DNA of 64,000 nt from Aporhodopirellula aestuarii (GTDB lineage Bacteria; Planctomycetota; Planctomycetia; Pirellulales; Pirellulaceae), in the NCBI RefSeq assembly GCF_023701485.1, contig NZ_JAMQBK010000039.1, forward strand, positions 124,001-188,000. Direction: 5' to 3'. This document shows positions 2,002-30,572 of this stretch, piece by piece. The notes below the pieces were generated by a model. The model had not been told where the DNA came from. It searched no databases and saw only the letters and a program-made list of their open reading frames with translations. The position numbers and the translations under genes are program-made. Position 1 is the first letter of the stretch. Every line of letters starts with the position of its first letter.

Positions 2002-2289
2002 CGTTTGCCGTTCAACGGTGTTAATGAGCCCATCGATTGTTCCAACGAATGATTCTCTTTCATGTTACCCACCCCTGCTGAAACGATCTCGCGATCACGA
2101 AAGTACGCGAGCAAGTATTCTAGCGAGCTCGAATTCATCCATCGGCTGCTAGAACGACGCATCCACCGCATTTCCTGCAAGAATACCGGACCGCAAGTCG
2201 AGAAGCCGAAACCCAAGTGGGTAGGCGAATCTGTAGAACCTTTCGTCTTCTGTCACGGGGCGCCTGAAAAGGGACCACCTGTCGGGACC

Positions 2290-2470
2290 TGGTCCCTTTT
2301 GAACTTTTCTCGGCATTCTTTAGCCGGTAGCTGCGGCCGGTGATCTTCATGATCTCCGCCGACTGCAAGAACCGATCCAAGATCGCACTGGCGCTCGGTA
2401 CGTCACCGATCAGCTTGCCCCAATCCTCTAGAGGACGGTTTGATACCCCGAGGACCATGGTAGGTGTGCT
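2290..2470 (-). pseudogene. IS21-family IstB (transposition helper ATPase) C-terminal remnant
   Basis: About 55 codons read VSNRPLEDWGKLIGDVPSAS followed by AILDRFLQSAEIMKITGRSYRLKN. This is the typical C-terminal end of IstB-type AAA+ proteins that assist the IS21 transposase. The ATPase core with its Walker motifs is absent upstream, and no IstA transposase is present. I see no terminal inverted repeats. It is the last scrap of an eroded insertion sequence downstream of the helicase gene. Confidence 0.7.
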
Positions 2471-2718
2471 TTGAGCCGGCGAATTCACCGAGTACTGTTG
2501 CGTAAATGAACACCGGCACTCCTGAAACCTGGACGCGCAAACAGCTACGCGAACGCTGCAAACTCAGCGATGGGTGTTAGACGGTTCTACGGCAGGCGAT
2601 CAGTGATCGAGGACTGACGGCAGTCGATCACTCTCGATTTCGAAGACATTGCCTCCCCTGGAACGCGACAAGATCGCATCGTGGTGACCACGCCCAAACC
2701 AATCCTGCCCACGGAACG

Positions 2719-5025
2719 TCATGGATTCAGTTGGCAATGCCCTGATGATGCCACGGCCGAATCGTACCAACCCGCTGCTTCCCACCGAGCAACACGATTG
2801 GGAACCGCATGTTTCCAAGAGTCACGTAATTGACGCCGCCGCTCCCACAGCAGCTGCCTGAGGGGTTGAGGCAAGAAGATCATCTCCCGCTCAAGAAGCT
2901 GAAATATATCTTCCTTGCCGACCCTCCATTGACCGATCGCGGTGTTCCCACCTGGTAACACCCGTCCGAATTCGCAATTCCCCTGCCATTGATATCGCGA
3001 GTGATTGAAGATCTGCATCCACAGGGCGATCCAGGGGATGATTTTGCGATAGTCCGTCGTGCCCTGGTGCATACGGACCTCAAGAAGCTGGATCGCATTG
3101 TCGATGCGATTTAAGTTGACCGAGTGATATCGCGATAGCGATCCGGAGGAGAACAGGATCGGGGCCTTATTGAGCTTTCTACTGTCGCGGTAGGGCTTGC
3201 AGAACTCGTTCCGCCCGTAGTTGTCATAAGTGTAGGGCCCGTGCCACTGGTACAGCCTCGAGGGTGCGACTAGGGTGTAGAGTCCATTTTCTAACCGCGT
3301 CAATCGGGCGGCGAATCCCCTTCGACGTTCTTCCGTATTGAGGCGAGTTGCCAGGGTAATGTGAAGGCCCGTTTCGTGATTGATGCGCATCGTGGGCGAC
3401 TGGTCCAAAAACCGGTCCAGCCCCTGAGACACTCGGGCTAGTTCGTCAAATCCATCGCGGTTAACCAGAATCGGAGAGACAACCTCCCAGCCGCATGAAC
3501 TGTCATAGCAAACCCGCCACGAGCAGTGTTCGTTATTTTCGTGGTAGCCAAGGGGGCGTTGGCACACCGGAAGCGAAGCGGAATGCTTGAGGCACTCGAT
3601 GATCTTCTGGGCACCGACGCGCCAGTCGCGGTCGCGAGACCGGGGACGAGGCGACGTTCCGATTTCAATCTCGACCCCAAACGTCTGGTCGCATGCAAAC
3701 GGAACTCCCGCAAGCCCGGGCAACTGCAGCACTTCGAAGCGTCGCACATCTTCGAGCTCGTCATGCTGAACCCTAGGACCACTCGGCATCGTCGAGGAAG
3801 TCGGCGCAACGCCTTGGGTATATTCCTTGGCGTGAAATAGCTGCGAGCCCAGGCGGGTTACCGAATCGGTAAACTCGACGATGGTGAACGAGTCCTTACC
3901 AGGGGATTTTCTAGCACCGCGACCCACCATCTGTGCCAGCAGTGTCAAGCTGTCCGTGGGACGCGTCAAGAAGACCGCATCGATCTCAGGTACGTCAAAC
4001 CCACTGGTCAACATCTCGACTGCTACCAGCGTATTGATGCGCCCTTCACGGAATTCCGAGATTGCGGTTTGGTTGTCCTCGGCGTTGTTGGCTGAATGCA
4101 CGGCTTTGGATGGTACGCCACTTCGCGACAAGAGGGTGGCGAGTTGATTGGCATGGTTGATGTTACATGCAAACATCAAAACACGCTGATACTGGCCCTT
4201 TTGGTAACCTTGCAAGAACCGCTGGATGATTTTTTCGTTTCGGGTTTCGCGATCTCCCAGATCGGCAAGCGACTTCGGCGTGATCTGCCCGCTATTAATG
4301 ATCGGATCCCATGTCTCGCCCGTAGCGAACTCTTCGATGCGGGGCGTAGCGAGGAACTCGGGACAAAGCTCTGCAAATGATTTGGCGTAGGCGATGTGAT
4401 GTGTCTCTGGATCGACGCGAGGCGTCGCCGAAAGCCCGATCATCAGTGACTGGCCCAAGAACCGATCCAGCAACGCTTTTCCATGCTGGGCTGCAGCGGC
4501 CCAGTGACACTCATCGATAATCACCAACAAGGGCTGCTTGCTGAAAGGGTCATGAGCGTCACTCGAGAAACGGCTGTACCAAGTCTGGACCGTGGTAAAC
4601 AGAAATCTCGCCTGTTGATTTTCCTTCATATCCGGCAGACCCTTCGGGTCGCCAATCGTTCCCATTTGGCTGCTGTATTGGGGTACGCATGCTTGACACT
4701 TCCGCCATGCTTGCTCGAGCAGATCCCAGCTCGGCGCGAGCCAAAGAACTTTCATGTCCTCGTTGCGATCAAGAAAGTCGTACGCCAGCTTCATGGCAAC
4801 CAGCGTCTTTCCCGCGCCGGTCGGAAGGCTGATCACCTGCACACGCTCGGGGTCGCTCGATAAATGATGATCGGTCTGCTGGACGGCATCACGCTGATAC
4901 CGACGAAGCTCCGGGAACCTGTGATCTTCGTCTGAGCCCTTACGTTTCCCTTCGATCGAATGGGGCGAAGGTATGGCAGCAATTGTCGCCAATGGAATTA
5001 CAGCAGTTGATTCGATAACACTCAT
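2719..5025 (-). CDS. SF2 DEAD/DEAH-type helicase fused to a putative amidoligase domain
   Basis: A 768-residue two-part protein. Residues about 38-400 form a superfamily 2 helicase of the type III restriction/UvrB-like kind: Walker A PTGAGKT at 68-74, DECH at 171-174, LSATP at 198-202, and motif VI QMVGRGAR at 365-372. Residues about 449-680 match the putative amidoligase family (ATP-grasp-related COOH-NH2 ligase fold): FGVEIE at 449-454, DSSCGWEVVSPIL at 508-520, TGLHI at 552-556, SVNLNR at 635-640, and EVRMHQGTTDYRK at 649-661. Family members are thought to form amide bonds between carboxylates and amines, often peptide-like. ATG 5025 is preceded by a strong GGGGAGG about eight bases upstream, so it has its own initiation signal. 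It lies last in a same-strand run of genes. How a nucleic-acid motor and an amide-bond enzyme cooperate is unknown; tagging or modification in defence against mobile DNA is speculation. Confidence 0.9.
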   Translation of the reverse strand: MSVIESTAVIPLATIAAIPSPHSIEGKRKGSDEDHRFPELRRYQRDAVQQTDHHLSSDPERVQVISLPTGAGKTLVAMKLAYDFLDRNEDMKVLWLAPSWDLLEQAWRKCQACVPQYSSQMGTIGDPKGLPDMKENQQARFLFTTVQTWYSRFSSDAHDPFSKQPLLVIIDECHWAAAAQHGKALLDRFLGQSLMIGLSATPRVDPETHHIAYAKSFAELCPEFLATPRIEEFATGETWDPIINSGQITPKSLADLGDRETRNEKIIQRFLQGYQKGQYQRVLMFACNINHANQLATLLSRSGVPSKAVHSANNAEDNQTAISEFREGRINTLVAVEMLTSGFDVPEIDAVFLTRPTDSLTLLAQMVGRGARKSPGKDSFTIVEFTDSVTRLGSQLFHAKEYTQGVAPTSSTMPSGPRVQHDELEDVRRFEVLQLPGLAGVPFACDQTFGVEIEIGTSPRPRSRDRDWRVGAQKIIECLKHSASLPVCQRPLGYHENNEHCSWRVCYDSSCGWEVVSPILVNRDGFDELARVSQGLDRFLDQSPTMRINHETGLHITLATRLNTEERRRGFAARLTRLENGLYTLVAPSRLYQWHGPYTYDNYGRNEFCKPYRDSRKLNKAPILFSSGSLSRYHSVNLNRIDNAIQLLEVRMHQGTTDYRKIIPWIALWMQIFNHSRYQWQGNCEFGRVLPGGNTAIGQWRVGKEDIFQLLEREMIFLPQPLRQLLWERRRQLRDSWKHAVPNRVARWEAAGWYDSAVASSGHCQLNP

Positions 5026-5437
5026 GTAGATGTCCTCCCCGGACGGGTGCCCGTGCCTAGATTTTGATTAGGAACGCTTCCTCTTCTGGTTCAGTTTGTG
5101 GAAGCTGTAGATCGCCCCAAAGATCGATGCTCACGCTTTCGGATTAACGCCCACGGCAGGCGAGTACCATGCAATAGGGCGGTCTGCAGTCCAGTCGGTC
5201 TGCTATCGGCTCCAGCCCTCTCGCGAAGCCACTGCAGACATGGAAAAGCGTGCACACCGATCGGGCGAGTTGACTTTGCTGGTTCTAGCAGCACGGCCGT
5301 TTTCACCAAACACGGCCTGGACAGTCGCTTGGAAAAACTCAGTCAGCCTTTGTGGATCACCCTTCTGTAATTCAATGAGTGGTACAGGATCGCTACCGAC
5401 GCCATGTCGGTGGGCGGTATCCGGAAGACGCCTCGGT
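5026..5437. other. 412-base gap between unknown gene and helicase gene
   Basis: There is no confident gene. On the minus strand a frame from about 5405 to 5203 reads like protein (PVPLIELQKGDPQRLTEFF, then QATVQAVFGENG) and ends at a stop. It has no ATG and no recognisable family, so it could be a decayed small gene between two members of the module. The bases just before 5026 hold the helicase ribosome binding site. Confidence 0.4.
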
Positions 5438-6223
5438 CTAGGCTGATGACTGGTTTGATTGCAACTTGCGCGTGTGCTTAAGGTGTTGTGTCCAAGCCTG
5501 GTAGATTTTCGTCCAGCGGCCGTGAGCTCGCTCCACTGCGGATCCCCAATACGCTGATCTCTTTTCATCCTGACCGGTAACGCTGGGCATGATCCAGCAC
5601 CGCATCAGGTCCATCCAAGCGATCACAACAACTTCCGCGTACATCCGACTGAGCGGGTCGTTTTCGGCGGAACCAAGGATCTCCGTGGTGTCCGCGTCAA
5701 GACGACACCGCCAAAGAGCAACGTTCTCGGGCGAGGCTGAGCCGACGAACTGGAGTAAGTGTTCACGTGAGACCGCGATCATGTCGGTAGCCTCGCGAAG
5801 TATCTCCGGCTGGGCGGCGATCCAGCTATCAAGCTGAGCTCGTGCGTCGACGTCGCCGCTCTCGGCGAGCCGGCAAACCTCTTTGAACTTGTGGAGACCC
5901 GGCATCTTCTTGTCGGCTTTGGGGGGTGCTGTGGATTGGCTGTGCATTTCAAGTTCGCCCATTTGTCGAATGACCTTCCAGTTTGTGGACCACTCGCTCA
6001 ACCATTCCAGCGATATATTGGCTGCGATGTCATTGTCTCTTTCGCGGCAGCAGGCTTCGCGATGGGCAAGCTCGTTGGCTTTCGCGAGACGCTCCTCTTC
6101 CACGAACAATTGAACCACCGGGTCCGAGGCCTTGCCGATGTAGCGTTTCTGCCGCTTGCCGTTGAGACGCCGTGCGAGGACGACATAGTTTTTCGCTGTG
6201 CCTTTTCGTTGTTCGATTTGCAT
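5438..6223 (-). CDS. Conserved hypothetical protein with basic N-terminal module
   Basis: About 261 residues from ATG 6223. An upstream TTG at 6256 in the same frame would add 11 residues but lacks a ribosome binding site. The N-terminus (NYVVLARRLNGKRQKRYIGK) resembles a short basic module I recall at the start of uncharacterised proteins on integrated planctomycete elements, where an aromatic/basic stretch is followed by a KxYIGK-type turn. The rest is mainly helical, rich in acidic and tryptophan residues, with no enzyme motif. The gene follows the 299-codon gene closely, which suggests co-transcription. A DNA-associated accessory role is possible but unproven. Confidence 0.65.
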   Translation of the reverse strand: MQIEQRKGTAKNYVVLARRLNGKRQKRYIGKASDPVVQLFVEEERLAKANELAHREACCRERDNDIAANISLEWLSEWSTNWKVIRQMGELEMHSQSTAPPKADKKMPGLHKFKEVCRLAESGDVDARAQLDSWIAAQPEILREATDMIAVSREHLLQFVGSASPENVALWRCRLDADTTEILGSAENDPLSRMYAEVVVIAWMDLMRCWIMPSVTGQDEKRSAYWGSAVERAHGRWTKIYQAWTQHLKHTRKLQSNQSSA

Positions 6224-6260
6224 AGACTTTGTGTACCACACATGCCATTTCAACAAAAAA

Positions 6261-7160
6261 CTATGCTGAATGCCGTCTTCCGCCTATCAAAATGTGCGAA
6301 TTATCTTCAGATCGCACAACTGGCAGTGCGTATTCTTCCGTGCCAAGGAATCTGCCGAGCACTTGTGCAGTTCTTTTTCCGAGCACGTGGCTGAGGTTGT
6401 CGAAGTGGGAGGGCTGCCGTGACGATAGGTCTCCGATTCGCAGGGCAACCTCACACAGACGGTTGGCGTCGGTCTCCGGTAGTTGGTGCCGCATCAGTAA
6501 GAGCTGCAAACGCTTGATCTCACGGCCCCTGCTCGTGGCCAGATCACAATCTTCGTGCAGGTGCGGGATTCCCGCCAGCCAGCGCTCACAGACCGCGGGC
6601 CCGCAGCGGTAGGATTCGCGGCACACAATGTTGTGCAGATCGCTGACAGGTTTACCATCTCGGTCGAAGACGTGGCAGGCCAACCAGGCCTTGGCATCGA
6701 GGCTGTCGAGGACATCGAAGTAGACGTCACAGTAGTCCCGCACGGTTTGAGTGGCGAGACCGCTGCGTACGGCGACGACATCGGGCGGCAGCCTCGCCAG
6801 CAATCTTGCCTCGACGTTCAGCCGTGTTGCCGGATCGTGAAAGATTGTCTCGGCCGCCGCGATGTCGAGTAGATGATCTCCGCGATAATGCGTACGTGCA
6901 TCGAAGGGTGCTCCTCGCCGGTAGTCAACAACTTGCCAGAACTCCGAACCATAATCGACATTCGCCGCCACGACGCCATGTGTGACAACCGATCGTGCCC
7001 TTTGCCATCTCCACACTGGACCCATCGCGAAACGAACATACTTCCGAGTGTCCTCTGCCGACATCTTGTCTTGACGACATATGGGGAACGAGAACTGAAG
7101 AGGTTCAGCAGGTGTTGCAGCCATGATTTTTCGTGGGCGAGGAAACGGGATAAGAAGCAC
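6261..7160 (-). CDS. Conserved hypothetical protein, HTH-like middle segment
   Basis: 299 residues from a GTG at 7160; an in-frame ATG at 7124 is an alternative start and neither has a clear ribosome binding site. The stretch RLNVEARLLARLPPDVVA, then VRSGLATQTVRDYCDVYFDV, looks like the short helix-turn-helix-like segment I have seen in uncharacterised planctomycete proteins (an 'ARLLAG..D..IA.R.GL....V..Y...FFDV' pattern). No catalytic motif is visible. It starts 25 bases after the stop of the 249-codon gene and ends just before the next gene, so it belongs to the same transcription unit. Function unknown. Confidence 0.7.
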   Translation of the reverse strand: MLLIPFPRPRKIMAATPAEPLQFSFPICRQDKMSAEDTRKYVRFAMGPVWRWQRARSVVTHGVVAANVDYGSEFWQVVDYRRGAPFDARTHYRGDHLLDIAAAETIFHDPATRLNVEARLLARLPPDVVAVRSGLATQTVRDYCDVYFDVLDSLDAKAWLACHVFDRDGKPVSDLHNIVCRESYRCGPAVCERWLAGIPHLHEDCDLATSRGREIKRLQLLLMRHQLPETDANRLCEVALRIGDLSSRQPSHFDNLSHVLGKRTAQVLGRFLGTEEYALPVVRSEDNSHILIGGRRHSA

Positions 7161-7185
7161 CGCATCGAGACTAGCGATTGCGACC

Positions 7186-7935
7186 TCACATTGACTTCGC
7201 CACCAGCCGTCGCGGCGTGTGCTTAGCGAGCTGTTTCACCGGCAGCATCTTCTCGTCCAGGTTGTATGAGCAAGGATAGCTCTTGGCGATCGTGAACAGC
7301 TCGTTCTTGCCGGTGTGGATGATTGGTGTGAGGCAGCGAACCATGTTTGCCTTCTTCCTCCCGGTGAGGTAATAGTCGTCGATCAAGTCAAGGCGATTCT
7401 CTAGCACCTCCGCAATAGCGTTCTTTTCGAACTTCGTTTGCGGGGGATAGATGGCAGCGGCGAATGCAAGTTGGCAACCCACGGTCAGGTTGAGCTGAAT
7501 TGGTTTATTCGCCTGCGCATCTTTGATGTATTTCCCAATCGTGTTGCGGTGGAGGTCGATTCTCGCACGCAGCCATCTTGCACTGGGGATAGCACCCGTT
7601 CCGAGATGGAATCGTTGCCCTTGTCCCCCGATGAGTCGTAAGTATGCGGCCAAGCGAGTCTCGATTGATAGGCCAGGGTTCCTCAACCGACGTGAATCTA
7701 GCCGGCTCGCATACCAATTGCAGTAGCGTACGTATCCAGCAGGACCGGCGGCCGCAAGTTCGAACGCGGTCGTCCCCTCCGGCAACCCGGCCAGGATAAG
7801 GTAGTCGGCGTCGACAGGAGTGGAACTAGGCAGTGAAGGTGGCGATGAGACAGACAACAGAGAGGTCCTTACCGAGGGAGCGTTGATGGTTTGCACAATG
7901 ATAGGTGCATCAGCCTGGACTCCAAAAAGATGCAC
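7186..7935 (-). CDS. Hypothetical protein, 249 residues
   Basis: The predicted start is GTG 7935 with a weak upstream signal, so the true start may be downstream. The N-terminal 45 residues are low-complexity and rich in Ser and Pro. The rest is compact, with NTIGKYIKDAQ that could be a DNA-recognition helix and a basic C-terminal tail (KHTPRRLVAKSM). No family recognised. It sits between the HTH gene and the 299-codon gene in the same orientation, with a gap of only 25 bases downstream, so it is probably part of their operon. Confidence 0.6.
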   Translation of the reverse strand: MHLFGVQADAPIIVQTINAPSVRTSLLSVSSPPSLPSSTPVDADYLILAGLPEGTTAFELAAAGPAGYVRYCNWYASRLDSRRLRNPGLSIETRLAAYLRLIGGQGQRFHLGTGAIPSARWLRARIDLHRNTIGKYIKDAQANKPIQLNLTVGCQLAFAAAIYPPQTKFEKNAIAEVLENRLDLIDDYYLTGRKKANMVRCLTPIIHTGKNELFTIAKSYPCSYNLDEKMLPVKQLAKHTPRRLVAKSM

Positions 7936-8003
7936 ATGGAATCGTGCTGTCGATTAGTTACGCGGGCGTGTTCACGTTCGCGACCTGCTGCCGTAGGACC
8001 AGC

Positions 8004-8450
8004 CTAATTGTCTTGGCGGCTACCGATGCCTTTCATCAAGAACTCAGCCAGCGTTCCTCTGCGTTCAGGGGCCTCTTCGCACCAGCGGTCTGCATCGGCT
8101 AGCCGAGCCCGCTTCTCCGCCCCTAGTTCTTCGAACGGAACAGGCGGACAGACTCCCGACAGGATCGCCAGGGTATTCATCGCATCGAAGTTGATCTGCT
8201 TGCGGTGGCCCGTTTTCAATTTCGAGATTGCTGTCGGGTCACACCCCAGAAACGTTGCCAGCCGCTTGATGGTTGGGCGACAGTCATGCCCTGGTCGGTA
8301 TTGGTGCCCACGTTGGTCGCATGAGCCGAGAAAGCTGAGGATGCGTTCCTCTAGCGACTGTTGGTTGAAATCCCGCTTGCGGGATTCTTGGTAAGACTCC
8401 GAATTCAGCATCTCGATGAGACCGGGGAGATCGGAACGGTCGTTGTTCAT
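8004..8450 (-). CDS. Cro/CI-type helix-turn-helix protein
   Basis: About 148 residues from ATG 8450, chosen over 8483 because AAAGGA lies seven bases before it. The central part (RPTIKRLATFLGCDPTAISK, then LKTGHRKQINFDAMNTLAIL) fits an XRE/Cro-type helix-turn-helix: helix, GCDPTAI turn, recognition helix, and a supporting helix. The N-terminal part is charged. The C-terminal part is acidic and may mediate oligomerisation. It is a likely transcriptional regulator of the surrounding module. It lies between the small gene that overlaps the ParB-like gene and the unknown genes, a common place for a control gene of a mobile or defence island. Confidence 0.75.
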   Translation of the reverse strand: MNNDRSDLPGLIEMLNSESYQESRKRDFNQQSLEERILSFLGSCDQRGHQYRPGHDCRPTIKRLATFLGCDPTAISKLKTGHRKQINFDAMNTLAILSGVCPPVPFEELGAEKRARLADADRWCEEAPERRGTLAEFLMKGIGSRQDN

Positions 8451-8552
8451 GGTTATTCCTTTGGGAATGAATGGAAATGACAAGGGTACTTACCCACAAG
8501 CTGCTGCCAGAGGAGCATTTCCCGAGGGACGATACTCGGGCAGTGGCGTCGC

Positions 8553-8738
8553 TTATGCCTGGGGAATCTGGTTGAGTCTCTGATTCAAACGCTCGATCGC
8601 TTGCTCCACGGCAGGAGTGTCCGGATCGACTGCCACGTGCTCATCGTCGTCCGTGGCTCCTATGAACTTGTCGCTGCCGGATCCGTACACCATGATCGAG
8701 ACATCCAGCTTGGGCCCCCTAAACCCAGGCCACCTCAC
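8553..8738 (-). CDS. Small hypothetical protein overlapping the ParB-like gene
   Basis: 61 codons. The sequence after residue 16 (MVYGSGSDKFIGATDDDEHV, then a coiled-coil-like AVEQAIERLNQRLNQIP) has a composition that looks coding. Its start overlaps the last 20 bases of the ParB-like gene in another frame, as in translational coupling. An internal ATG at residue 16 is an alternative start. No family recognised. A small partner protein of the ParB-like product is one possibility. Confidence 0.5.
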   Translation of the reverse strand: MRWPGFRGPKLDVSIMVYGSGSDKFIGATDDDEHVAVDPDTPAVEQAIERLNQRLNQIPQA

Positions 8739-9495
8739 CCGGTGCTGTTAGTTCGCGGATGCCGTCGCCATGCTCTGTGACGACGCTGAGGTCTCGCTGT
8801 GGTCGCGAAGGCTTCCGCTTCTTGGGTCGTGGAGCCTGCGTCTGCTTGCGAGGCACGCCAGTACGGTTAGCGGCTTCCTCGAGCGATATCTCCCCCGACT
8901 CAATGCTAGGCTGTAAGTCAGGAGCCGCCAACAGGATTTTCTCGGCCAACGCCAAATCTGCACGCGGTACCTCTTCCTCCTTGGCTACTTTTTCCAGGGC
9001 ACGAGGGCCACGCTTCTTAGGTTGTTGGCTTCGCGCAAGCTTTGCGCCATCCGGCTGCTTTTGGCTTTGACGAACTTTCTCTGCACCCACAGTCCGTTTT
9101 ACGCCCGCAAGCTTCCGCTGCATGGAAAGGCGATCGACAGCAAGCATCAATTTCTGATTCTTCGTGAGGTGACGACGGGCCACGTTGGATTGAGCGATCG
9201 CCTCTGGGCTATGCTCCGTTACCTTCACGTCGTCAGCGGTGAGGGCGACGCCAGCAACGAAGCATGCCATGAGGCGAGAGCGACCGTCGAGTAGCTGCTT
9301 GTCGTGATTGATGTAGATGGGCTCGAGCAGGCCGTTCTCCTTGATCGAGTCGACCATGTTGTCGAAGTTTCGTTGTGGGATTATCGGGATGGAGTTGCAC
9401 ATCGGGTGTATCTTGCCGACCAGCGTTCCTGCATGCTGTAGGCCCTCTTTGACTTTCGGTCGTTCGTAGCGAGGGGAATACTTGTTCTCGTTCAT
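8719..9495 (-). CDS. ParB-like nuclease/partition-fold protein
   Basis: About 258 residues from ATG 9495. A longer frame reaches 9639, but its first 48 codons translate the repeat-rich upstream region and look non-coding. Residues about 45-85 contain the ParB N-terminal signature: MVDSIKENGLLEPIYI, then LLDGRSRLMACFVAGV. The centre is basic and the C-terminal third (LQPSIESGEISLEEAANRTG) resembles the segment after the HTH in ParB/RepB-like proteins. These proteins bind DNA, and some bind or hydrolyse CTP or act as nucleases. No ParA is present nearby, so chromosome or plasmid partition is unlikely. It is the first gene of the same-strand module ending in the helicase-amidoligase. Confidence 0.75.
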   Translation of the reverse strand: MNENKYSPRYERPKVKEGLQHAGTLVGKIHPMCNSIPIIPQRNFDNMVDSIKENGLLEPIYINHDKQLLDGRSRLMACFVAGVALTADDVKVTEHSPEAIAQSNVARRHLTKNQKLMLAVDRLSMQRKLAGVKRTVGAEKVRQSQKQPDGAKLARSQQPKKRGPRALEKVAKEEEVPRADLALAEKILLAAPDLQPSIESGEISLEEAANRTGVPRKQTQAPRPKKRKPSRPQRDLSVVTEHGDGIRELTAPGEVAWV

Positions 9496-9545
9496 GTTGA
9501 GGCTACGTGAAGAAAGGAGACGGCGGCACGTGTCACCGTGGTTCG

Positions 9546-9597
9546 CTCGAAGCAGTCGAGCAGAATTTAGCCGACTGCTTCGAGCAGAATTTAGCCG
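9546..9597. repeat. Overlapping inverted and direct repeats upstream of the ParB-like gene
   Basis: Two 12-base arms (9546-9557, CTCGAAGCAGTC, and 9573-9584, its exact reverse complement) flank a 15-base loop. In the same stretch a 17-base sequence (CGAGCAGAATTTAGCCG) occurs twice, at 9557-9573 and 9581-9597. The block lies about 50 bases before ATG 9495 of the ParB-like gene. It could be an operator for the HTH regulator, a binding site for the ParB-like protein, or a hairpin in the leader RNA. Confidence 0.6.
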
Positions 9598-10107
9598 CCG
9601 TCCCTCTATGCGGATTAACCACGATGACGATCTCATCATGACAGCGATGCCAACAGTTCCAAAATCGACAATCCTCGCGTGATGGCGAAACGGACCAACT
9701 CTCCACCGCTGTACCCCGGTAGCCTAATTTTGTTCGGATGAGAGGGGCCTAAAGGGTCGGTAGGGTCGCTTTGAGAAAGTGGTTGAGCACCGAACGCGAA
9801 ACTACGACGATCCATGCTCTTCAGACCTTCTGCGGTCTAAGTGTTGTAAGAGTTGCTGTCGATGTTGCATGTCAATTTGCCACAAACAATCGCCCAATTG
9901 GCTGACACTGGCGAAGAGCAGCGGAACTTGGGTGCATTGTTGGGTGTCACCCCCGGAAGCATCGCAGTTATCCCGTGTTTTCCCAGACTCGGTTCGAGTC
10001 CTAGCGGGTTTCTGCGTTGCGTATGCGGCGTAACCGCACACCAGAACCGTTGTAGGCGTGGGGTTTAGGATCTTGGGTTTTGTCTCAATTCCCGTATCGG
10101 AGATCCC
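9598..10107. other. 510 bases without a recognisable gene
   Basis: Frames on both strands give no known protein. A short perfect stem (AGACC/GGTCT at 9823-9838) is present. A TTCGAGT motif near 9993 resembles a tRNA T-loop but has no tRNA body around it. The region separates the helicase/ParB module from an IS66 scrap and probably holds the module promoter near its left end. Confidence 0.4.
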
Positions 10108-10260
10108 ATGAATCCAGACAACATTTCCCCGGCAGTTCGCGTTTTGACCGAGCGATTTGATCGATTTCGTGCCGCCGACATGACCGTCGCTCAGTTTTGT
10201 AACGCTGAAGGCGTTATTCAAACCGCCTACCATTACTCTTTAAAAAAGCTTCACGGCAAC
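10108..10260 (+). pseudogene. IS66-family accessory ORF (TnpA-like) N-terminal remnant
   Basis: The frame starting at ATG 10108, preceded by CGGAG, reads ERFDRFRAADMTVAQFCNAE, then GVIQTAYHYSLKKL. This matches the N-terminal helix-turn-helix of the small IS66 accessory protein, which normally reads as 'R...F..S..SVA.FC..EGVS...FY.W...L'. After about residue 50 the match ends and the frame drifts to a stop at 10347. No TnpB or full transposase follows. Two scraps of the IS66 large transposase occur near 53.45 kb. Confidence 0.6.
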
Positions 10261-10496
10261 CAGAGGTCCGCCCAAATGCCGTTGTCCAACGCGATGCCAC
10301 GGTTCGTATCGAAATCGTCCAGAGCGTCCAGAGCGTCATGTTTGTAAAGATAGACCTCGAACAGCTTCTGAGGACTTCGCGTCGGTTGGAGTTCTGCCAA
10401 AAACTCGCCGCCCAGATCTCCTGGCGAACATGGTCCAGGATCTCGAAGGTCAGCTCCGAATGTTTCTTGACAGTCGCTTCGCTGGCGGACTTGCTG

Positions 10497-11030
10497 TCAT
10501 GACCTGCACCCAAGAATTCTGTCCACCGTCAGATCGATATGCCAGCGGTCGATCCATCGACGAATGTTTGCGTATGGTACACGATGCGTTTGCGACGTGG
10601 ACTCTGCCAGTTTGAGTGCCCAGGCATCAAATAGTTTACTGTCGACATGCGACTTGTACTTTAACAGCACTCGCAATTCGCACCACCAAGCGGAATCCGG
10701 TTCAGCCAATTCGACTGCGTATTGCTGCTCCACCGCGTGCGCTGCGTATTTGCGGGTTTCGGAATTCAGTCCGTTCCCACGATCCACAACAATCGGTGAC
10801 ACGCCGTGTGAAATCGCATTGCGAAATCGGTCAAAATTCCATTGGCGCGCCAGTGGTAGTTTTTCGCTGCTGTAATCGTAGCTCGCCGGATCGTCGCCCA
10901 CTTGAGTATAAAAATACAAATCAGTTTCCAGCACAATGCCGTCTTGACCTGCCAATCTCCGAGCACGGTGGCTCTTCCCGCAGCCCGGCAAGCCTCGCAT
11001 CAGATACACAGTCTTTTTCGTACCGTTCAT
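10497..11030 (-). CDS. N4BP2-like P-loop kinase/ATPase
   Basis: 177 residues from ATG 11030; an upstream TTG at 11060 is unlikely. The N-terminus holds a strand plus Walker A (MRGLPGCGKS), followed by the acid-rich ETDLYFY and a YDYSSEKLPLARQWNFDRF segment. The pattern 'P.SGKST.A......ST D.......Y.F....L..AH......A' is typical of N4BP2-like ATP-binding proteins, relatives of polynucleotide kinases. PIVVDRGNGLNS fits the family's VD.TN element, and the C-terminal HRVPYANIRRWIDRW matches its conserved end. It may phosphorylate nucleic acid ends or another substrate. It starts about 110 bases downstream of the first giant gene on the same strand. A broken copy lies in the same position after the second giant gene. 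Confidence 0.8.
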   Translation of the reverse strand: MNGTKKTVYLMRGLPGCGKSHRARRLAGQDGIVLETDLYFYTQVGDDPASYDYSSEKLPLARQWNFDRFRNAISHGVSPIVVDRGNGLNSETRKYAAHAVEQQYAVELAEPDSAWWCELRVLLKYKSHVDSKLFDAWALKLAESTSQTHRVPYANIRRWIDRWHIDLTVDRILGCRS

Positions 11031-11143
11031 CTTCGTCGTTGACCTCGCATTCGATTCCAACCACGTTGAATGATGCCAGTGGGATTTTCAATTACCTACC
11101 ACATGCCGGTTCACCTGTAGCTGGATACCAATTGTTGGGCTTT

Positions 11144-14100
11144 CTACGGCTTCAGTTTGTCATTGAGGCTGCCGAACAGGTGGTCGTCTCCTTGCTCGCC
11201 CTTCAAGTCATCTTTATCGCCATCGGACAGTAGGGTGCCGACGGCCGCCATCGCCGAGGGTAAATCACCCGCATTCCAAAATGTCAGTGCGGTATCAAGA
11301 GCCGAGAGGTCATTTTCGTTGGCAGCCATGTCAGCGAACATCAAGTCATCCCCTTTGCCGCCTTTCATTTTATCCTTGCCATCGCCGCCGATCATCAGAT
11401 CATTGCCGTTTCCTCCCTTCATGTCATCGTTGCCCGCACCACCGACGAGGATGTCATCGCCACCACCGTCGGATCCGCCATCGGAGCCACCATCAAGTTT
11501 GTCGTCTCCGGCACCGCCAAATAGGACATCGTTACCGCGTCCGCCCTTGAGGTCATCCTTCCCGTCGCCGCCATCGAGCAGGTCATTGCCTCCTCCGCCG
11601 GTCAGGTCGTCCTTGCCTTCACCCCCATAGATCTCCGCGTCTATCATAACATCTTTATGGATCTTAGCTTTGTCGTCGTCGCCACAAAGATGAATGACAA
11701 TTTGGTCAACATCCGTGACGTTGAAGTAGTCGGTACCACCATCACTTCCGCCGTCAGACCCGCCATCACTGCCACCGCCCTTGTCGAGCTTGGCTTTGAC
11801 TTTCAGCTGATCGGCTCCACCGTCGGAGCCTCCGTCACTTCCGCCATCGGACCCACCGTCGCTGCCCAGTTTGATGTCGATGTCATCACGGCCATCGGTA
11901 CCGATCACATACAGCACGCCATCGACGAGTCCGACCCCTTGCGAGATGGCAGTGGTCGTCCATGTATCGGTGCCACCGTTGCTGTCTGCGACGGTTACCG
12001 AGATGACGAAAATTCCACCGGTGGCATAGTCATGACTCGCATCAAAAACATCAGCTATTTGATCGACAGACGCTAGGATTTCTGGACCGGAATCATCACC
12101 CCAATCCACGATCACGGTATGGGTATCGTTAAGATCGAAGTCGGAGAACGATCCATCGATCCAAACCATGCCGTCTGCCGAGCTATCACACACCTCGTCA
12201 TGGCTCGAGTTCAGGCTCGTCACGGTGGGATCATCATTGGTGCCGGTGATGGTCACCGTGATCAATCGATCGACCGTACCGCTGTTGCCGTCATCCAGTG
12301 TGATGTTGAACGTTTCCACCTTGGTTTCACCGGCCTGCAGGTATTCGACATCTGCCGCCGCAACACTGTAGTTCCAAGTGATCACGCCACCGATGCCGGT
12401 TCCGGTTGTGTCCGCCGTCACGCTGGCGGTCAGCGAGCCCAAGGCTCCTGCCGAAGCGGTTATGGTTCCGTCGATGTTATGCACGTCGAGCAGGTCGACG
12501 TCACTGAAACCGATCGTACCCGAATCGGTCAGGTTACCGGTCGGTGTGACCAGTTCGGTAACCGCACCGGTGACATCGGCCACGTCCACGATCGGATCAT
12601 CATTGGTTCCGCTGATGGTGACCGTGATCAATCGATCCACCGTACCGCCGTTGTTGTCATCCAAGGTGATGTTGAACGTCTCGACCTTGGTTTCACCGGC
12701 CTGCAGGTATTCGACATCTGCCGCCGCAACACTGTAGTTCCAAGTGATCACGCCACCGATGCCAGTACCGGTCGTGTCCGTCGTTACACTGGCGGTCAAC
12801 GTTCCCAAGGCTCCGGCCGAAGCGGTGATGCTGCCGTCGATGTTATGCACATCGAGCAGGTCCACATCGCTGAAGCCAATCGTACCGGTGTCCGTCAGGT
12901 TGCCAGTGGGAGTGACCAGTTCCGTGACTGCACCGGTCACATCGGCCACATCTACCAACGGAGTATCGTTGGTGCCGGTGATCGTGATCGTGATCAATCG
13001 ATCGACCGTGCCGCCGTTGCCATCATTGAGCGTGATGTTGAAGGTTTCCACTTTGGTTTCACCTGCCTGCAGATATTCCACATCCGCTGCCGCAGCGCTG
13101 TAATCCCAAGTGATGACTCCACCCGCACCGTTGCCCGTAGTGTCCATTGTCACGCTGGCAGTCAACGATCCTAAGGCACCCGCCGAAGCGGTGATCGTAC
13201 CGTCAATGTTATGGACGTCGAGAAGGTCCACGTCGGTGAATCCGATCGTGCCGGAGTCCGTCAGGTTGCCAGCGGGGGTAACCAATTCGGTGACGGCACC
13301 CGTGACATCAGCTGCGTCCACGATCGGATCATCATTCGTGCCGATGATCGTGATGGTTACTGCTTCGGTTACACTGTCGTCTTCGTGTGGGAGCGTTGCG
13401 GGAGTGCCGACGCTGCTACTGTCGGTAACGGTCACGTCAAAACTCAGCGTGATCGTTTCGCTCATGCCCAGGAACTGAACGGCGATGTTGGCCACACTGT
13501 AGTCCCAACCGTCGTTGTCAGCCGTGAAACCGCTACTAACGTCCGAAATCTGGCTCGCGGTCAATGTGCCACCGCTCCAAACTGCATCGATGTTATAGGA
13601 ACTGCTGATCGTGTGCGTGTCATCGCCATCGACATCGCCAAAACTCAATACGCCACTATCGACCAAGCTGGGCGTCGAGTCATCTTCGGTGACTTCGCCA
13701 GTGGCGTCCACGCTCAGAGTCGGCGTATCGTTGACTGCCACGACCGTCAACGTGGTGGTGGCGATTAGGCTATTGTCGATCCCGTCGCTGACTACGAACT
13801 CGATGGTCCGATCGGTGGGATTGGGATCCTGTGACGCATTACTGTATGTCACGGTCCGCAGCACTTGTTCGTAGTTGGCGACCGTGTCTTCGCCGGTTAG
13901 CGTTAGCACGCCGCCGGAGTAGTTGGCGGTGATATTCGTTCCGCTAACATCGACCGCCAGCACCTCGGTTGCGCTGTCCAGGTTGTTGGTCAACGTCACC
14001 AATGCCTCGGTGATCGAACCGGAATTCGCGTGATATTGACGAGCGAAGATTCCCCAGTTGGATTGATCTTGACTCGGCCACGTCACGACAAAGTTCCCAC

Positions 14101-17100
14101 TCGCATCCATCGCGACTGCCTTTCGAAATGGCGGAGCGCTAGGCGTTGAATTGATTTCGAACTCACTTCCCTGAGGAATTCCCGTTGCATCGTAAACCTG
14201 CCCCATCACGCCAGGTCCGATGCCACTGGGCGTATTCACCACACTCCATACAATGACGAAAGTTCCGTTTGCGCTCATCGCTATGAACGGATCTTTTTGG
14301 GGAGCGATTGTCGTCGTATTGACGAGAAACTCACTACCCAATGCAATGCCCGACGAGTTGTATCGCTGGGCGTAGACACCGTGTCCGCTACCATCTTGCC
14401 CAATGCTCTCCCAAGTGACGACGAAGTTGCCCAGATCGTCCATCGCAACCGACGACGCTTGTTGGGAAGAGTTGGTATACGAGTTGACCTGGAACTCGCT
14501 ACCTTGTGCAACGCCCGATGCGTTGTAGCGTTGGCCGTATATGCCGTAGCTATTGCCGTCCTGGTCGTAGCTTTCCCAGGTCACCACGAAATCACCTCCT
14601 GGGCTCATCGCGAGGGAGGGTCGAGATTGCCAGTCAGTGGTATAGGTGTTGATCTGAAACTCGCCGCCTTGGGAGTTACCCGATGCATCGTAAAGTTGAC
14701 CATAAACTCCCGTGCCGCTGCTGTCTTGGGTGTTGCTTTCCCATACGATGACAAATCCCCCCGAATCATTTACTGCGACCGACGGACTCTTTTGATTGTC
14801 TGCCGTAAACGTATTGACCTGAAACTCAGCATTCTGTGGAACGCCTGCCGCGTCGAAGCGTTGAGCGAAAATACCGTCGTCGCTTCCGTCTTGGTTCACA
14901 CTCACCCAGGCGACGACAAAGTCCCCAGAAGCATTCATTGCGACCGCCGGCCTGTGTTGATTACCAAGTGTGGCGGAATTGACTTGAAACTCGCTTCCCT
15001 GAGGCACACCGGCGGCATTGAAACGTTGCCCAAACACTCCCAGGCCGTCCCCGTCCTGGTCTATGCTCGTCCAAACGATCACGAAGTTACCAGCGTCGTC
15101 CGTGGCAATCGGTCGGCCAGCGGTACCAACATAAAAACTTTGTAAGTCGACAAACGTCGTGTTGACCTGAAATTCCGAACCAAACGGCGTGTACGGTGGT
15201 GGGACGTCAACATCGGACAAGGTCAAATCAGTATCTTGGATTAGGACGGCGCCACCGTCTTCGGTGAACGTCGTGGCGTAGTCGATTCCCGCATCGTCGG
15301 TACCGTTCAAGTCCAATACCGGTGCGTCGTTGCTACCGCTGATTGTTACGGTAACCGAACCTGTCGCAGTTCCCCCATCGCCATCGCTGATCGTGTAAGT
15401 GAACGTATCGGTTGTCGTTTCTGACTGTGCCAGTGACTCGAATTGTCCGTTCGGATCGTAAGTTACATTCCCTGACGTATAGCTAACCAATCCCAACGTA
15501 CCAGTGACATCAATGGCCGTGACTGTCAAAGGATCGTTGATTCCCGCTGGATCAGTATCGTTGTCGAGCACATCAATGTTGATGGCCGGTCCGTCTTCAT
15601 TAACACTGCCCACATCATCGACCGCAGTGGGATCGAGATTGCCAACGGACACCTGCAATGATTGCTCGACGAAATCGACCCCAACCGTCCCGCCAACGAA
15701 GTCACCCGACATGTCGTCGTCGGCCAATCGGACCGTGACGGTGTAAACGCCGTCATCAGCGTATACATGAGTGCCGCTGATAGATCCCGACCCAGCCGTT
15801 TCGCTAATTGCACCAGCATCGGCTGAACTGCCATCGCCCCAATCGATTTGTGCAGAGTGGAGATCCAGCGTTCCAACATCCGTGAAATTCACTGTGAGGT
15901 TGAAGGAATCACCTTCATCCACAACGAAGGTCGGCGGCGAATTGAGCAGGACGGAAACACTTGCTCCGTTGTAATTCGCCACGATCAAATCGGTCTGTCC
16001 GTCGTTATTCACCTCGCCAAGTGAGATGAAAATGGGTGTGTCCCCAGTGGAGTAATCGACCGCCGATAAGAATGTTCCATCGCCGTTCCCTTCAAGGACG
16101 CTGACATCATCTCCGTTTAAGTTGGTGGAAACGATATCGGGATTACCATCGTTATTTAGATCCGTTGCCGCGACGGAGCGCGAGCCAGATCCCGTCGTAA
16201 AATTCGCTGGTGATTGGAATGTTCCGTCACCGTTGCCAATCACCACGCTGGCAATACTGCTGCTGAAGTGGACAACGACGAAATCAGTTATCAGGTCGCC
16301 GTTAAAATCTTCGGCGGCGATACCGGCGGGTTGTGGACCGGCTGAGACGCTGACGGCAGGTTGGAAGGTCCCATCGCCGTTGCCCGCGACAAAGCTGACG
16401 TCCGCACCGGACCCGTGGTTTGCCACCACCAAATCCAATAGGTTGTCGCCATCGAAGTCGCCCACATCCAGCGACAGTGGATGACTGCCCACGGTATACG
16501 TCACGACTGGTTGGAACGTCCCATTCCCATTGCCCATCAAAACGCCGACGTTGCCCGAAAACTGGTTGATTAGCAGCAGATCGTCGATGCTGTCCGAATC
16601 TAAATCGGCAGCCTTCACAAAAACCGTTTGCGATCCGCCGGATGCGTACGTTACTGGAGCTTGGAATGTCCCGTCACCATTCCCCAGGAAGACTTGCAGC
16701 GAGTTTCCGCCGATGACCGCCAAATCCATTTTGGAATCGCCGTCGAAGTCCGCTGCGTCGATGCCGCGGCCATCGCCATTGAGCGCCAACAGCGTCGGTG
16801 CGGCAAAGTTGCCGTCACCGTTGCCGAGCATGATGGACAAATTGTCAGTCGATTCGTTCGCCGCAGCCAAGTCCGCGTTGCCGTCACCATCGAAATCGGC
16901 AGTGATGGCTGCCAGCGGACGCGTGCCGTCGGTCAGCGAGTCGACGGTGCTTGCAAAACTGATCGGTGCCCCAGCGTTGCTCGGTGTGATCTGAGGTAGG
17001 ACATTCAACACGGTGACATCGGTCGTCGCCGTACCGCCCACGGTCGCCGGCGACGCATCGTCATCGTCGACAATGGTGACCACGACCGTACTCGCATCCC

Positions 17101-20100
17101 AACTAGTCGTATTACCGGGGGCCGGGCCATCATCCATGAACTGATGATCCACATGGAACTGAATCGTGGACGCGGTGACCGTACCAATCGTCAGCGTTGA
17201 ACCATCGCTGCCGGTGAAGTTTTCACCTCCCGATAGCACATTGGTGGAGTCCAGGTTATAGGAAACGACACCAGGATCGTTGGGATCGTTCCAGTCGACC
17301 GTCAATGTAAACTCGTCCTGCGTTCCAGGATCATCGATCGTTCCGGTCAACGTTGCGATATCGTTTTCGCCGATAGGCGAGATCATGGATAGCGTGACTG
17401 TTGCCTGCACATTGTTGACGTTCAGTACCGTGTGATCCACATCCAGATTGGTTCCGTCACTGACTTCAACATTGACGCCACCCGAGTAAGGGCCATCAAC
17501 GATCCCCAATGCAACGAGTTGCGGCCATGTCAGGCTCAATGTCGGAGCGGTTCCTGTGTTGAAGTCAAACGTATTGTCTCCGTTAACATCCCAACGATAG
17601 GTCAGTATGTCTGCGGGAACGTCGGCATCCGTCGAAGCTGATGCATCCAGCGTCAGCCCCATCCCCTCATCGATGACGTACAGCCCGCCGGCATCGGCGT
17701 TCGGGACAAGGTCATCGTTTACAATTTTTCCGATGACGGTGACGGTGCCCGCAGACAAGCGGTAGACGCGAGCATGGCCGGAATCATTTCCGTTTCCATC
17801 GGCCAGTCGTGCTCCGACGACAACTGTATTTCCATCAGCACTCATTCCGACAGCCCAGCCGGATTGATCAAAGGAGGCACCACCGTCGATATCGGCTCCC
17901 ACCTGATTCCAGACGACGCCGTCAAATCGGTAAATCCGCGAGTGTCCGGCTCCGCTTGCCGCCCCGTCATTGCCGAACGCCCCGATGATGACCGTCAAAC
18001 CATCGTCGCTCATAGCGACTTCGCGGCCAAACTGATCACCAACGTTCTCGCCAACGATGTCAGTACCCTGCTGATCCCAAGACACCCCGTCGAATTGGTA
18101 GATGCGAGCAGTCCCGAAGAACGCCGCGCCAGCATTGCCACCAACGACAATAGAATTACCGTCAGCACTGATGGCTACGGCCGAACCAACCTGATCACCT
18201 GCTTCGCCATCAATGTCCGTTCCTAATTGAACCCAGCTGCTTCCATCAAAACGATAGACGCGGGCGTGACCCGAACTGGTACCATTCCCATCGTTGGCTG
18301 GGGCTCCGATGACGACGGTATTGCCGTCCTGACTGATCGCAACGGCCCGACCTGCTCGGTCATCAGCGGCTTCGCCGTCGATGTCGCCGCCCTTCTGAAT
18401 CCAGTTGCTCCCGTCGAACGCGTAGACACGCGCATGGCCGGAATCCGTACCGTTACCGTCATTGGTCGAGGCCCCGATGATAAGCGTATTGCCGTCGCCA
18501 CTTATCGCTACTGAATAGCCCGATTCGTCAGCAGAAGCTTCGCCGTCGATGTCGCCGCCCAACTGGTTCCATTCACTGCCATCGAAACGGTATACGCGAG
18601 CGTGCCCCGAGTTGCTGCCATTACTGTCGTTTAGAATTGCCCCAATAACTACCGTGTTGCCATCGTCGCTGATTGCGACGGACCATGCCGACTGATCGTA
18701 TTGCGCTTCACCTTCGATGGCAAAACCGAGCTGATTCCAAGTGTTGCCGTCGTGTCGATAAATTCGCACGTGGCCGGAGCCATCGCCTTGCGCGTCGTTG
18801 TTGACTGATCCCACCGCAACCGTATTCCCGTCGGCGCTCATTGCTACCGAGTAACCGGCTTCGTCGCCGGCAAACTCGCCGTCAATATCTCCACCCAACT
18901 GCGTCCAGCCGCCGTCATTCAACACGCCCGTCCCCAACAGACTCACGTCGCGGCCACCGGCCTGCAGATTGGTTGCCAGAAGCGTCAGTGTTTCGTCCAA
19001 CTCAGCCAGATTCTCTTCCGTAACATTGACGGTGATCTGCCCTGTCAGGTCGTTTGCGAGAATCGAGAGCGTGCCGCTGGCTGCGTCGTAATCCTGACCA
19101 CTCGTCGCCGAGTCGTCCTGAGTTCCATAGTCAAATGACACGTCGGTATCGACCGGGTTACTCAGCGTCACGTCAAACACCAGTTGCACTGAGTCACCCG
19201 GATCACCTTCGACCACCGTCGCATCCGTGATCGTCACTGTCGCACTGTCGTCGTTCTCGATCTTGATCACCGCCGAAGGATGAATCGGACCCGCCTCACC
19301 GCTGTCGCTGAAGTTGGCAAACGACAGATCGATCGTTTCGTCCAATTCGACGGTATTGTCGCCGAGAAATTCGATCGGCACGGTTTTGGTGGTCTCACCG
19401 ATGCCGAATTCGAGCGTCACGGGGCCGGCGGAGAAGTCGTCTCCGGCAACGGCCGTGTCGCCGATCAGCACAACGTCGACTGACGTCGCGATCGCAGTCA
19501 CTTCTGACCTCGTAACCGTGACGACGTAGCTTGTATTTGTGCCGTCGCCTTCAAAGTCTGAGAATGAGGCAGCCGAAAAATCGTATTTGGGCGTTCCCAC
19601 ACTGATAACCACATCGTTGCCGGTAGCGGCGTCGAGTCCGAGGTAGGAAATGGTGGCCACAAGGCCGGAACCAAGGAAATCGTTGCTGAGGACTGCTCCT
19701 TCAGACAAACCAGCAAACGTGCCACCAACCGGCTCAGCGCCATCGTCGTGAATGACGACATACTGCTGGCCGCCCCCCGGTATAAATCCACCCAAGGTGG
19801 ACCAGTTCAACGCCACATTGTTTCCAATCGTAAGCGTACCCGTGACGTCCAACTGGTCGTGGAATCCGGCACCAACGCCAGCAGAGGCACCACCGATTTC
19901 GACATCGAATGTCGCGTCGTCCGCCAGCGTTACATTTGCGACGACGCCCAGGATTCCTGCCGAACCACCCGGCGAAACGCTGCCGGAAAACGACAATTGC
20001 GGAACGGTCACGTCGGGGTTCCCCGTGTTGATGTCACCGATTGTCGTGTCACTAATCAATTCCAGGGAAAGCGATAGCGCGGGATCCACAGGTGACGTGA

Positions 20101-29536: not shown

Positions 29537-30049
29537 GGTATCGATCCATTGATAACCATCCGTGGTGGGGAGTGGTGAGCAAGGAACGCATAATTAGTGC
29601 AACGTTCTGGGCAGCACCAGCGGACAATCAGTCTGGAGTCTTGCGATTTCTGCTACTGGCGATTGAGCAAGAGAAACCGAGAAAGACCCAGGTGAGACAG
29701 GCCAAGTGGCAGATATGAAGAACGCCCGACTTTCAATTCGTTGGCATTGCGACACACTCTGGAAGAGATAGCCTGCCCCCTCGTTAGTATGTCGCATTCC
29801 CATCCCGATAGATCCAGATAATCCATCATTTCGGAAATTTCTCGTTGAAACGAGAATCTGGAGTCGTGTTGGATTTCGCGTGAAGCAGTAATACTGAGAC
29901 AACCTCCTGACCCAGTTCTCAAGGGGGGCAGCCACGGTCGTGGCGTCATAGCCATTGCCAGGACAATGCATGCAGTCCGCGGAGGTCCTTCGGGCACTCG
30001 CTCACGCGATCCACGACGGCAAGCAGCGTCGTGGGCTTGTCGTGATCCT
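29537..30049. other. 513-base gap upstream of giant gene 1
   Basis: Short frames exist on both strands (for example minus 29653-29997) but none has a recognisable domain or convincing start. The region should hold the promoter of giant gene 1; I see no near-consensus promoter on the minus strand. Its right edge at 30050 is where the duplicated block begins. Confidence 0.4.
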
Positions 30050-30459
30050 CAGGCATCAAATAGTTTACTGTCGACATGCGCCTTGTACTTTAACAGCACT
30101 CGCAATTCGCACCACCAAGCGGAATCCGGTTCAGCCAATTCGACTGCGTATTGCTGCTCCACCGCGTGGGCTGCGTATTTGCGGGTTTCGGAATTCAGTC
30201 CGTTCCCACGATCCACAACAATCGGTGACACGCCGTGTGAAATCGCATTGCAAAATCGGTCAAAATACCATTGGCGCGCCAGTGGTAGTTTTTCGCTGCT
30301 GTAATCGTAGCTCGCCGGATCGTCGCCCACTTGAGTATAAAAATACAAATCAGTTTCCAGCACAATGCCGTCTTGACCTGCCAATCTCCGAGCACGGTGG
30401 CTCTACCCGCAGCCCGGCAAGCCTCGCATCAGATACACAGTCTTTTTCGTACCGTTCAT
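30050..30459 (-). pseudogene. Broken duplicate of the N4BP2-like kinase gene
   Basis: This is a near-identical copy of 10621-11030. Reading from the position of the ancestral ATG (30459), the Walker A motif GCGKS becomes GCG-stop-S. At 30403-30405 the lysine codon AAG is TAG, while the intact copy has AAG at 10974-10976. The frame otherwise stays open to about 30050, where homology ends and the last about 45 codons of the intact gene (from ALKLAES onward) are missing. It has therefore lost both its catalytic lysine and its C-terminus. A short open frame internal to it (30049-30384) is a relic. Confidence 0.88.
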
Positions 30460-30572
30460 CTTCGTCGCTGACCTCGCATTCGATTCCAACCACGTTGAAT
30501 GATGCCAGTGGGATTTTCAATTACCTACCACATGCCGGTTCACTTGTAGCTGGATACCAATTGTTGGGCTTT

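Follow-up and report, generated by a model that had tools for sequence, protein, structure and literature searches.

PafA, an enzyme of the glutamine-synthetase (GS) family, joins proteins. The TmcA/Kre33/NAT10 enzymes acetylate cytidine at N4 and thus yield an amide. The gamma-glutamyl cyclotransferase (GGACT) family is named after an activity that opens gamma-glutamyl amides. As reported, TmcA/Kre33/NAT10 combine a helicase domain with an N-acetyltransferase domain (PMC6770127), Glu-Lys bonds are formed by an actin crosslinking domain of the GS family (PMC2908040), phage amidoligase genes are treated as auxiliary metabolism (PMC10945688), and RadD contains zinc fingers (PMC9049331), acts with RecA and has no independent helicase activity on branched DNA (PMC8887467). 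Here, a gene of Aporhodopirellula aestuarii is described in which a RadD-like superfamily 2 (SF2) helicase core is continued by an amidoligase domain. It lies at 2719-5025 of a 64,000-nucleotide stretch of contig NZ_JAMQBK010000039.1, hereafter the window. This helicase-amidoligase fusion was not found in the literature searched, although the 2009 amidoligase survey of Iyer may mention it; the parts available of PMC10945688, PMC7824862 and PMC11318856 do not mention it, and no settled substrate for the stand-alone amidoligases of the PF12224 family was found in the same literature.

The gene is encoded on the minus strand, with its ATG at 5025-5023 and its stop codon at 2721-2719, and the plus strand over 2719-5025 contains many stops. 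The initial annotation had placed the gene exactly, without naming a strand, and had described a single frame preceded by a good ribosome-binding site, which is borne out by the following features:

2719..5025, minus strand: RadD-like SF2 helicase core plus Amidoligase_2, 768 residues, ATG start, single open frame (Pfam, family alignments)
5033..5040, minus strand: ribosome-binding site GGGGAGGA, with the ATG 7 nt further on (sequence read directly)
4417..4911, minus strand: helicase lobe 1 (ResIII, residues 39-203) with motifs PTGAGKT (I), DECH (II) and LSATP (III) (Pfam)
3907..4224, minus strand: helicase lobe 2 (Helicase_C, residues 268-373) with motif VI, QMVGRGAR (Pfam)
2986..3693, minus strand: GS/GCS-like amidoligase domain, residues about 445-680, Pfam match 497-670 (Pfam, model, profile comparison)
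2776..2931, minus strand: C-terminal helical tail past the ligase, residues about 699-750, kept in the close group (alignment and model)

The motor core spans residues 36-410 approximately, with SF2 helicase/translocase motifs I, II, III and VI all intact (PTGAGKT 68-74, DECH 171-174, LSATP 198-202, QMVGRGAR 365-372). ResIII (95.6 bits) and Helicase_C (56 bits) both exceed their Pfam cut-offs. The second half contains FGVEIE (449-454), GWEVVSPIL (512-520), TGLHI (552-556) and EVRMHQGTTDY (649-659), so that every motif quoted in the initial annotation is present, and its assignment of this half to the putative amidoligase family is confirmed by a match to Amidoligase_2 (PF12224) of 33 bits, above the curated cut-off of 22.

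The joining of both domains is not peculiar to the window. In an alignment (A1) of the window protein with 27 homologues (P0002-P0028), 30-57% identical to it, all 28 members match Helicase_C and, at E 0.001, Amidoligase_2, which fully supports the fusion proposed at the outset and excludes chance or a frame artefact. The first protein search had returned 28 proteins with both halves (P0001-P0028), the score dropping from 264 to 113 bits at the first helicase lacking the ligase; further searches added 10 clusters and then at least 36 more. The last of them gave 282 matches, 52 of the 120 listed having Helicase_C and 16 of these 52 being already known. Thus, the same join occurs in at least 74 clusters (90% identity), with identities down to about 30%. 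Three proteins (P0142, P0146 and P0152) have no precomputed PF12224 domain, yet score 306-321 bits against the ligase profile. When 84,980 species genomes were scanned for two exact peptide patterns, 20 loci emerged, 14 of them fused within one open reading frame (ORF) and the others being L045, L054 and L060-L063, described below; they come from Planctomycetes, Myxococcales, other deltaproteobacteria, Oligoflexia, Geobacteraceae and Competibacteraceae. Altogether, the search of other genomes for the same fusion located it in five phyla (Planctomycetota, Myxococcota, Bdellovibrionota, Thermodesulfobacteriota and Pseudomonadota).

Interrupted and short forms also exist, and they are what could be said for two genes joined by chance or by an assembly error. 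An in-frame stop codon separates the halves in L054, only the ligase half remains in L045, and lobe 1 is missing from the ORFs of P0001, P0152 and P0134/L046. The breadth of the family and the 28 of 28 members with both domains refute this explanation, whose probability is negligible. P0001 (Neorhodopirellula lusitana, 477 residues) and P0152 (Urbifossiella limnaea, 474 residues), which keep the ligase, are found on contigs of 7.8-8.0 Mb; such forms without lobe 1 may reflect decay. In L060-L063 the ORF has no helicase, L063 being a fragment at the locus end. Sixteen high-scoring matches of the last protein search without a precomputed helicase domain were inspected, and they weigh against a family of fused proteins: three keep motif VI and 13 lack it, and these 13 could be cut, decayed or truly unfused.

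The fusion is a conserved family, yet a rare and patchy accessory gene. The whole gene is present in three of the 199 genomes of Pirellulaceae, including its own (G000, G148 and G156), while G183 retains the ligase half plus the end of lobe 2; in the remaining 12 genomes of the genus, the matches listed cover the helicase part only. In a drawn sample of 392 genomes of the phylum, two match at 1e-20, with at most five candidates scored per genome. A quick tree of helicase halves, comprising 48 of the 51 split fusions and 34 other helicases, places 47 of the 48 fusions in one group (SH-aLRT 88, below the 95 mark), P0130 being unplaced. Both halves diverge together, their pairwise distances correlating with r 0.672, above all 2000 shuffles (76 of 84 rows, those with enough helicase). 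The join probably arose once.

Conservation at the catalytic positions shows that both enzyme halves are under selection. The alignment used for this purpose has 84 rows (the window, 74 clusters and 9 loci, with L050 and L055 as near-copies), leaving outside L044-L046, L051, L052, L054, L057, L065 and L080, which are duplicate or partial, except for L080, simply not added. In the ligase, E452, E514, H555, R590, E649 and R651 are present in all 84 rows, and E454 and R632 in 83, so that the ExE, H and ExR residues of GS-type enzymes (E452, E454, H555, E649, R651) are in place. In the motor, K73 of motif I is found in 72 of 73 non-gap rows (11 gaps), D171/E172 of motif II in 77 of 77, and R369 and R372 of motif VI in 84 and 81 rows, respectively. 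When fused and stand-alone ligases are aligned together (19 rows), Q447, G450, E452, E454, W503, D508, E514, H555, R632, E649 and R651 are invariant.

On the basis of these residues and of profile comparison, the ligase half belongs with the GS/GCS-like carboxylate-amine ligases. Its profile (alignment A3) matches a GCS2 profile, built from genomes of relatives, with a probability of 95.4% and E 2e-8, aligning GVEIE, H and ExR, whereas a RadD-like control gives 0.0%. PF12224 and GCS2 are members of one Pfam clan. The full-length predicted model has a confident alpha/beta structure at its C-terminal part. Two results count against this assignment: the whole-fusion profile A1 reaches only 3.2% against GCS2, over 53 columns, and no solved structure matches the ligase sequence below E 0.09. 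In a structure comparison of the full model, helicases filled the 50 entries listed, with no GS-like chain among them. A flagellar protein, the lone sequence match (E 0.092), was taken as chance and rejected as a structural relative.

A further clue comes from GGACT, which is linked to the fusion recurrently, through repeated recruitment. It is fused C-terminally in L057 (the same as P0121; 45.6 bits) and P0122 (36.1 bits), and directly follows the fusion gene in L059 (40 bits, 10 nt past the fusion stop) and L080 (77.3 bits, where it touches or overlaps the stop). Thus, of the 18 fusion loci whose DNA was read (window, L044, L046-L059, L065 and L080), three have it, flank length varying among them, with just 50 nt beyond the stop in L058. 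L057, P0122 and L059 are on different branches of the helicase-half tree, L080 being outside it. The GGACT of L080, first spotted by eye and then confirmed by profile, is of a different subgroup; the profile made from the phage-type group matched five proteins. Since the 9 Mb genome of the window has only two GGACT genes, two next-gene cases are, as a rough inference, unlikely to arise by chance. The stand-alone amidoligases L060 and L062 (ligases 95% identical) and L064 also adjoin GGACT.

Other additions are more scattered. L053 has a SAP domain (26.1 bits) and a weak GNAT match (19.4, under 20.7), and C-terminal GNAT domains occur in P0134/L046 (26.2 bits) and P0167 (21.2 bits), which are 36% identical. 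An all-against-all comparison of neighbours (L041-L065 plus window, E 1e-8) gave a kinase-like ORF pair common to L044 and L048, across phyla, and two ORFs common to the window and L065, within the family, with no cross-phylum sharing beyond GGACT and that pair. MoxR-like AAA genes, whose families are common, lie near L080 and L053, and another near L044 was seen by eye. In L080, a run on one strand (7636-14374) comprises a MoxR-like AAA_3 gene, a 373-residue ORF, a DUF2201 metallopeptidase, the fusion and GGACT, with gene ends overlapping or nearly touching.

Given that the fusion, its two active sites preserved, is met again in bacteria far apart, it probably links something to nucleic acids or to proteins located on them. 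The explanation tentatively favoured, held with somewhat less than even confidence, is that a RadD-like SF2 ATPase, binding nucleic acid and travelling along it, covalently carries an ATP-dependent carboxylate-amine ligase of GS/GCS type that forms gamma-glutamyl-type amides, and delivers it to an amine there. The sequences show motor and ligase preserved side by side through long evolution; the gamma-glutamyl part is suggested by GGACT, fused or adjacent. The motor would load on or remodel nucleic acid, and would thereby bring the ligase to its target, either the exocyclic amine of a base or a lysine in a bound protein. The ligase would activate a carboxylate as acyl phosphate, probably the one at the gamma position of glutamate or a glutamyl compound, and form the amide. 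The gamma-glutamyl group could then be released as 5-oxoproline by a cyclotransferase, whether fused, adjacent or encoded elsewhere in that genome. Such an enzyme would work like TmcA/NAT10, with the ligase replacing the acetyltransferase. A rather doubtful extension is a complete reversible system, with the motor presenting DNA or RNA while the ligase attaches glutamate (or some glutamyl compound) either to an amine of a base or to a protein held there, and with the cyclotransferase erasing the mark. If true, mobile elements would carry the fusion to mark, protect or poison genomes, and it would represent a class of nucleic-acid-directed conjugation without a ubiquitin-like tag.

Several rival explanations draw on the same observations. 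The motor could bring the ligase to DNA- or RNA-bound proteins (e.g., SSB, RecA or invader proteins) and create isopeptide bonds, for defence or in the interest of a mobile element. Protein-joining domains of the GS family, such as the actin crosslinking domain, are a precedent, and two of ten scanned loci have clear defence-like genes (SngC/BrxD-like in L056; Cas4-like and PDC-S14 in L047). Against this, no candidate tag or target gene travels with the fusion among the compared neighbours, the repeated GGACT partner points to small gamma-glutamyl amides, and the scanned neighbours in the window have no PADLOC match. Protein tagging or crosslinking is a real but doubtful possibility. The GGACT genes beside stand-alone relatives, in the viral contig L064 and the two Clostridia loci L060 and L062, together with the published treatment of such phage genes as auxiliary metabolism, would suit a metabolic gamma-glutamylation of free amines (polyamines, cell-wall precursors), the helicase merely sensing nucleic acid or regulating the ligase. 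This is unlikely, given that the catalytic residues of the motor are conserved as strongly as those of the ligase and that L053 has an additional SAP domain, which speaks for nucleic acid.

The resemblance of the core to RadD also allows for a repair or recombination factor in which the C-terminal zinc-finger region has been swapped for a ligase fold used for binding only. A CxxC-n-CxxC motif, the pattern of the second zinc finger of RadD and the sole one sought, is found past lobe 2 in none of 51 fusions; this is weak evidence, since only three of 34 non-fused relatives have it. Six ligase catalytic residues invariant in 84 of 84 rows would be unneeded in a binding-only domain, and this explanation is quite improbable.

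Returning to the delivery of a ligase to nucleic acid, a motor-tied amidoligase accompanied in several lineages by an eraser-type enzyme narrows the search for a substrate to nucleic acids and what sits there, and the fusion is one small gene to assay. If the substrate is indeed nucleic acid, ATP-dependent amide ligation would join the ways of marking DNA or RNA open to cells and to mobile elements.

The genomic setting fits accessory cargo, several loci having integrases or element modules close by. PF00589 integrases were found near L045, L046, L056 and L059 (four of five ORFs tested), and the fusion of the window is flanked by:

5438..9639, minus strand: upstream module of 272-, 299- and 249-residue ORFs, an HTH-like 159-residue ORF and a ParB-like 306-residue ORF (ORFs, relatives elsewhere)
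2135..2488, minus strand: IS21 IstB remnant just downstream of the fusion (IstB_IS21, 41.5 bits, profile end 188-237 of 238)

The upstream module (5582-9573) aligns with the fusion-less L074 at 68% nucleotide identity, and additional copies of the 299-residue gene are present in G000 and G148. Since L074 and L075, from two other genomes of the genus, have relatives of these genes but no fusion, the genes were rejected as fixed operon partners, the module being carrier context. L074 also contains restriction-subunit-like and transposase-like ORFs (13967-17098 and 5428-7731), named by eye.

The hypothesis of the initial annotation, a role in defence or in tag conjugation upon sensing foreign DNA, may hold; as for its question of whether the gene sits in defence islands, the neighbourhoods differ. 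Among neighbours chosen by eye from ten loci and scanned with PADLOC, those of L047 and L056 (SngC-like, 199 bits; BrxD-like, 85.6 bits) are clearly defence-like and that of L046 is weak (20.3 bits), while the seven scanned neighbours of the window gene match no PADLOC family. At 9453-15652 of L056, on a stretch that also bears an integrase, the fusion is accompanied by an SngC-like helicase, a pair of BrxD/SngB-like ATPases and an ORF resembling PDC-S02. The window protein itself matches defence models through its helicase core only, among the best 25 of 47, with no whole-length match accompanied by partner genes; the best are PbeA (94.2 bits, residues 32-203) and mREase_IV (73.9 bits, residues 65-386). 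A defence role is possible. Since the gene is a rare accessory and several loci are near integrative elements, the likeliest setting is a role in the conflict of hosts with mobile elements.

Other homes and origins were considered and rejected. In viral_contigs, the 27 exact-pattern matches included no fusion and a single stand-alone amidoligase; among phage records, 15 resemble the ligase half, each with less than 60% identity; and 295 plasmid records match, none over more than 80% of the query, the 15 listed covering the helicase half. As for a split-gene precursor in the same genome (contig C83), the RadD-like helicases near PF12224 ORFs fall outside the fusion group. On C83, stand-alone PF12224 amidoligases (L041 3200-4057 and L042 4451-5374, both plus strand) lie in two related phage-like regions, about 9-11 kb from a RadD-like helicase, beside ORFs that by eye resemble DNA methylases and terminases. 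Elsewhere in the window, the minus strand holds a tandem of giant ORFs, with 6130 and 7201 residues (11144-29536 and 30573-52178), with similar antisense ORFs (10616-11233 and 29955-30692, plus strand), one beside each. This suggests duplication beside both giant ORFs of a stretch with an AAA_33 kinase-like ORF (10497-11060).

Compared with known systems, the ligase shares with GCS2 and other GS-like carboxylate-amine ligases the aligned GVExE, H and ExR motifs, but is about 14% identical to them. Stand-alone phage and prophage amidoligases (phrog_2443, 36.1 bits) have the same domain. The stand-alone members of PF12224 have the same invariant residues as the fused ones, and some have a GGACT neighbour; however, they are separate proteins (L062, 291 residues; L064, 354 residues), whereas the fusion has a motor, and they are 21-27% identical to the window ligase, as opposed to 46-59% among the close planctomycete forms, fused or cut. 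On the motor side, the RadD model of NCBIfam gives 122.2 bits, short of its equivalog cut-off (720 bits), in a match ending at profile position 357 of 573. RadD (YejH) of E. coli has a C-terminal region where the fusion has the amidoligase, the CxxC-n-CxxC motif being absent from the fusions. Taking into account what has been reported for RadD on branched DNA, the motor of the fusion may remodel rather than unwind. The initial annotation held that no motor covalently joined to an amide-forming enzyme had been described, which was too strong in view of TmcA/Kre33/NAT10; what stands is that the helicase-amidoligase pairing itself was not met in the literature. A motor joined to an amide-former is therefore not wholly new in principle. 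Like the fusion, TmcA/Kre33/NAT10 have a helicase and an amide-forming domain in one polypeptide, and TmcA acts on nucleic acid; they differ in that their amide-former is an N-acetyltransferase and that of the fusion a predicted ATP-dependent ligase. By analogy, TmcA/NAT10 may be regarded as the nearest working analogue, with acylation of a nucleobase as the possible parallel.
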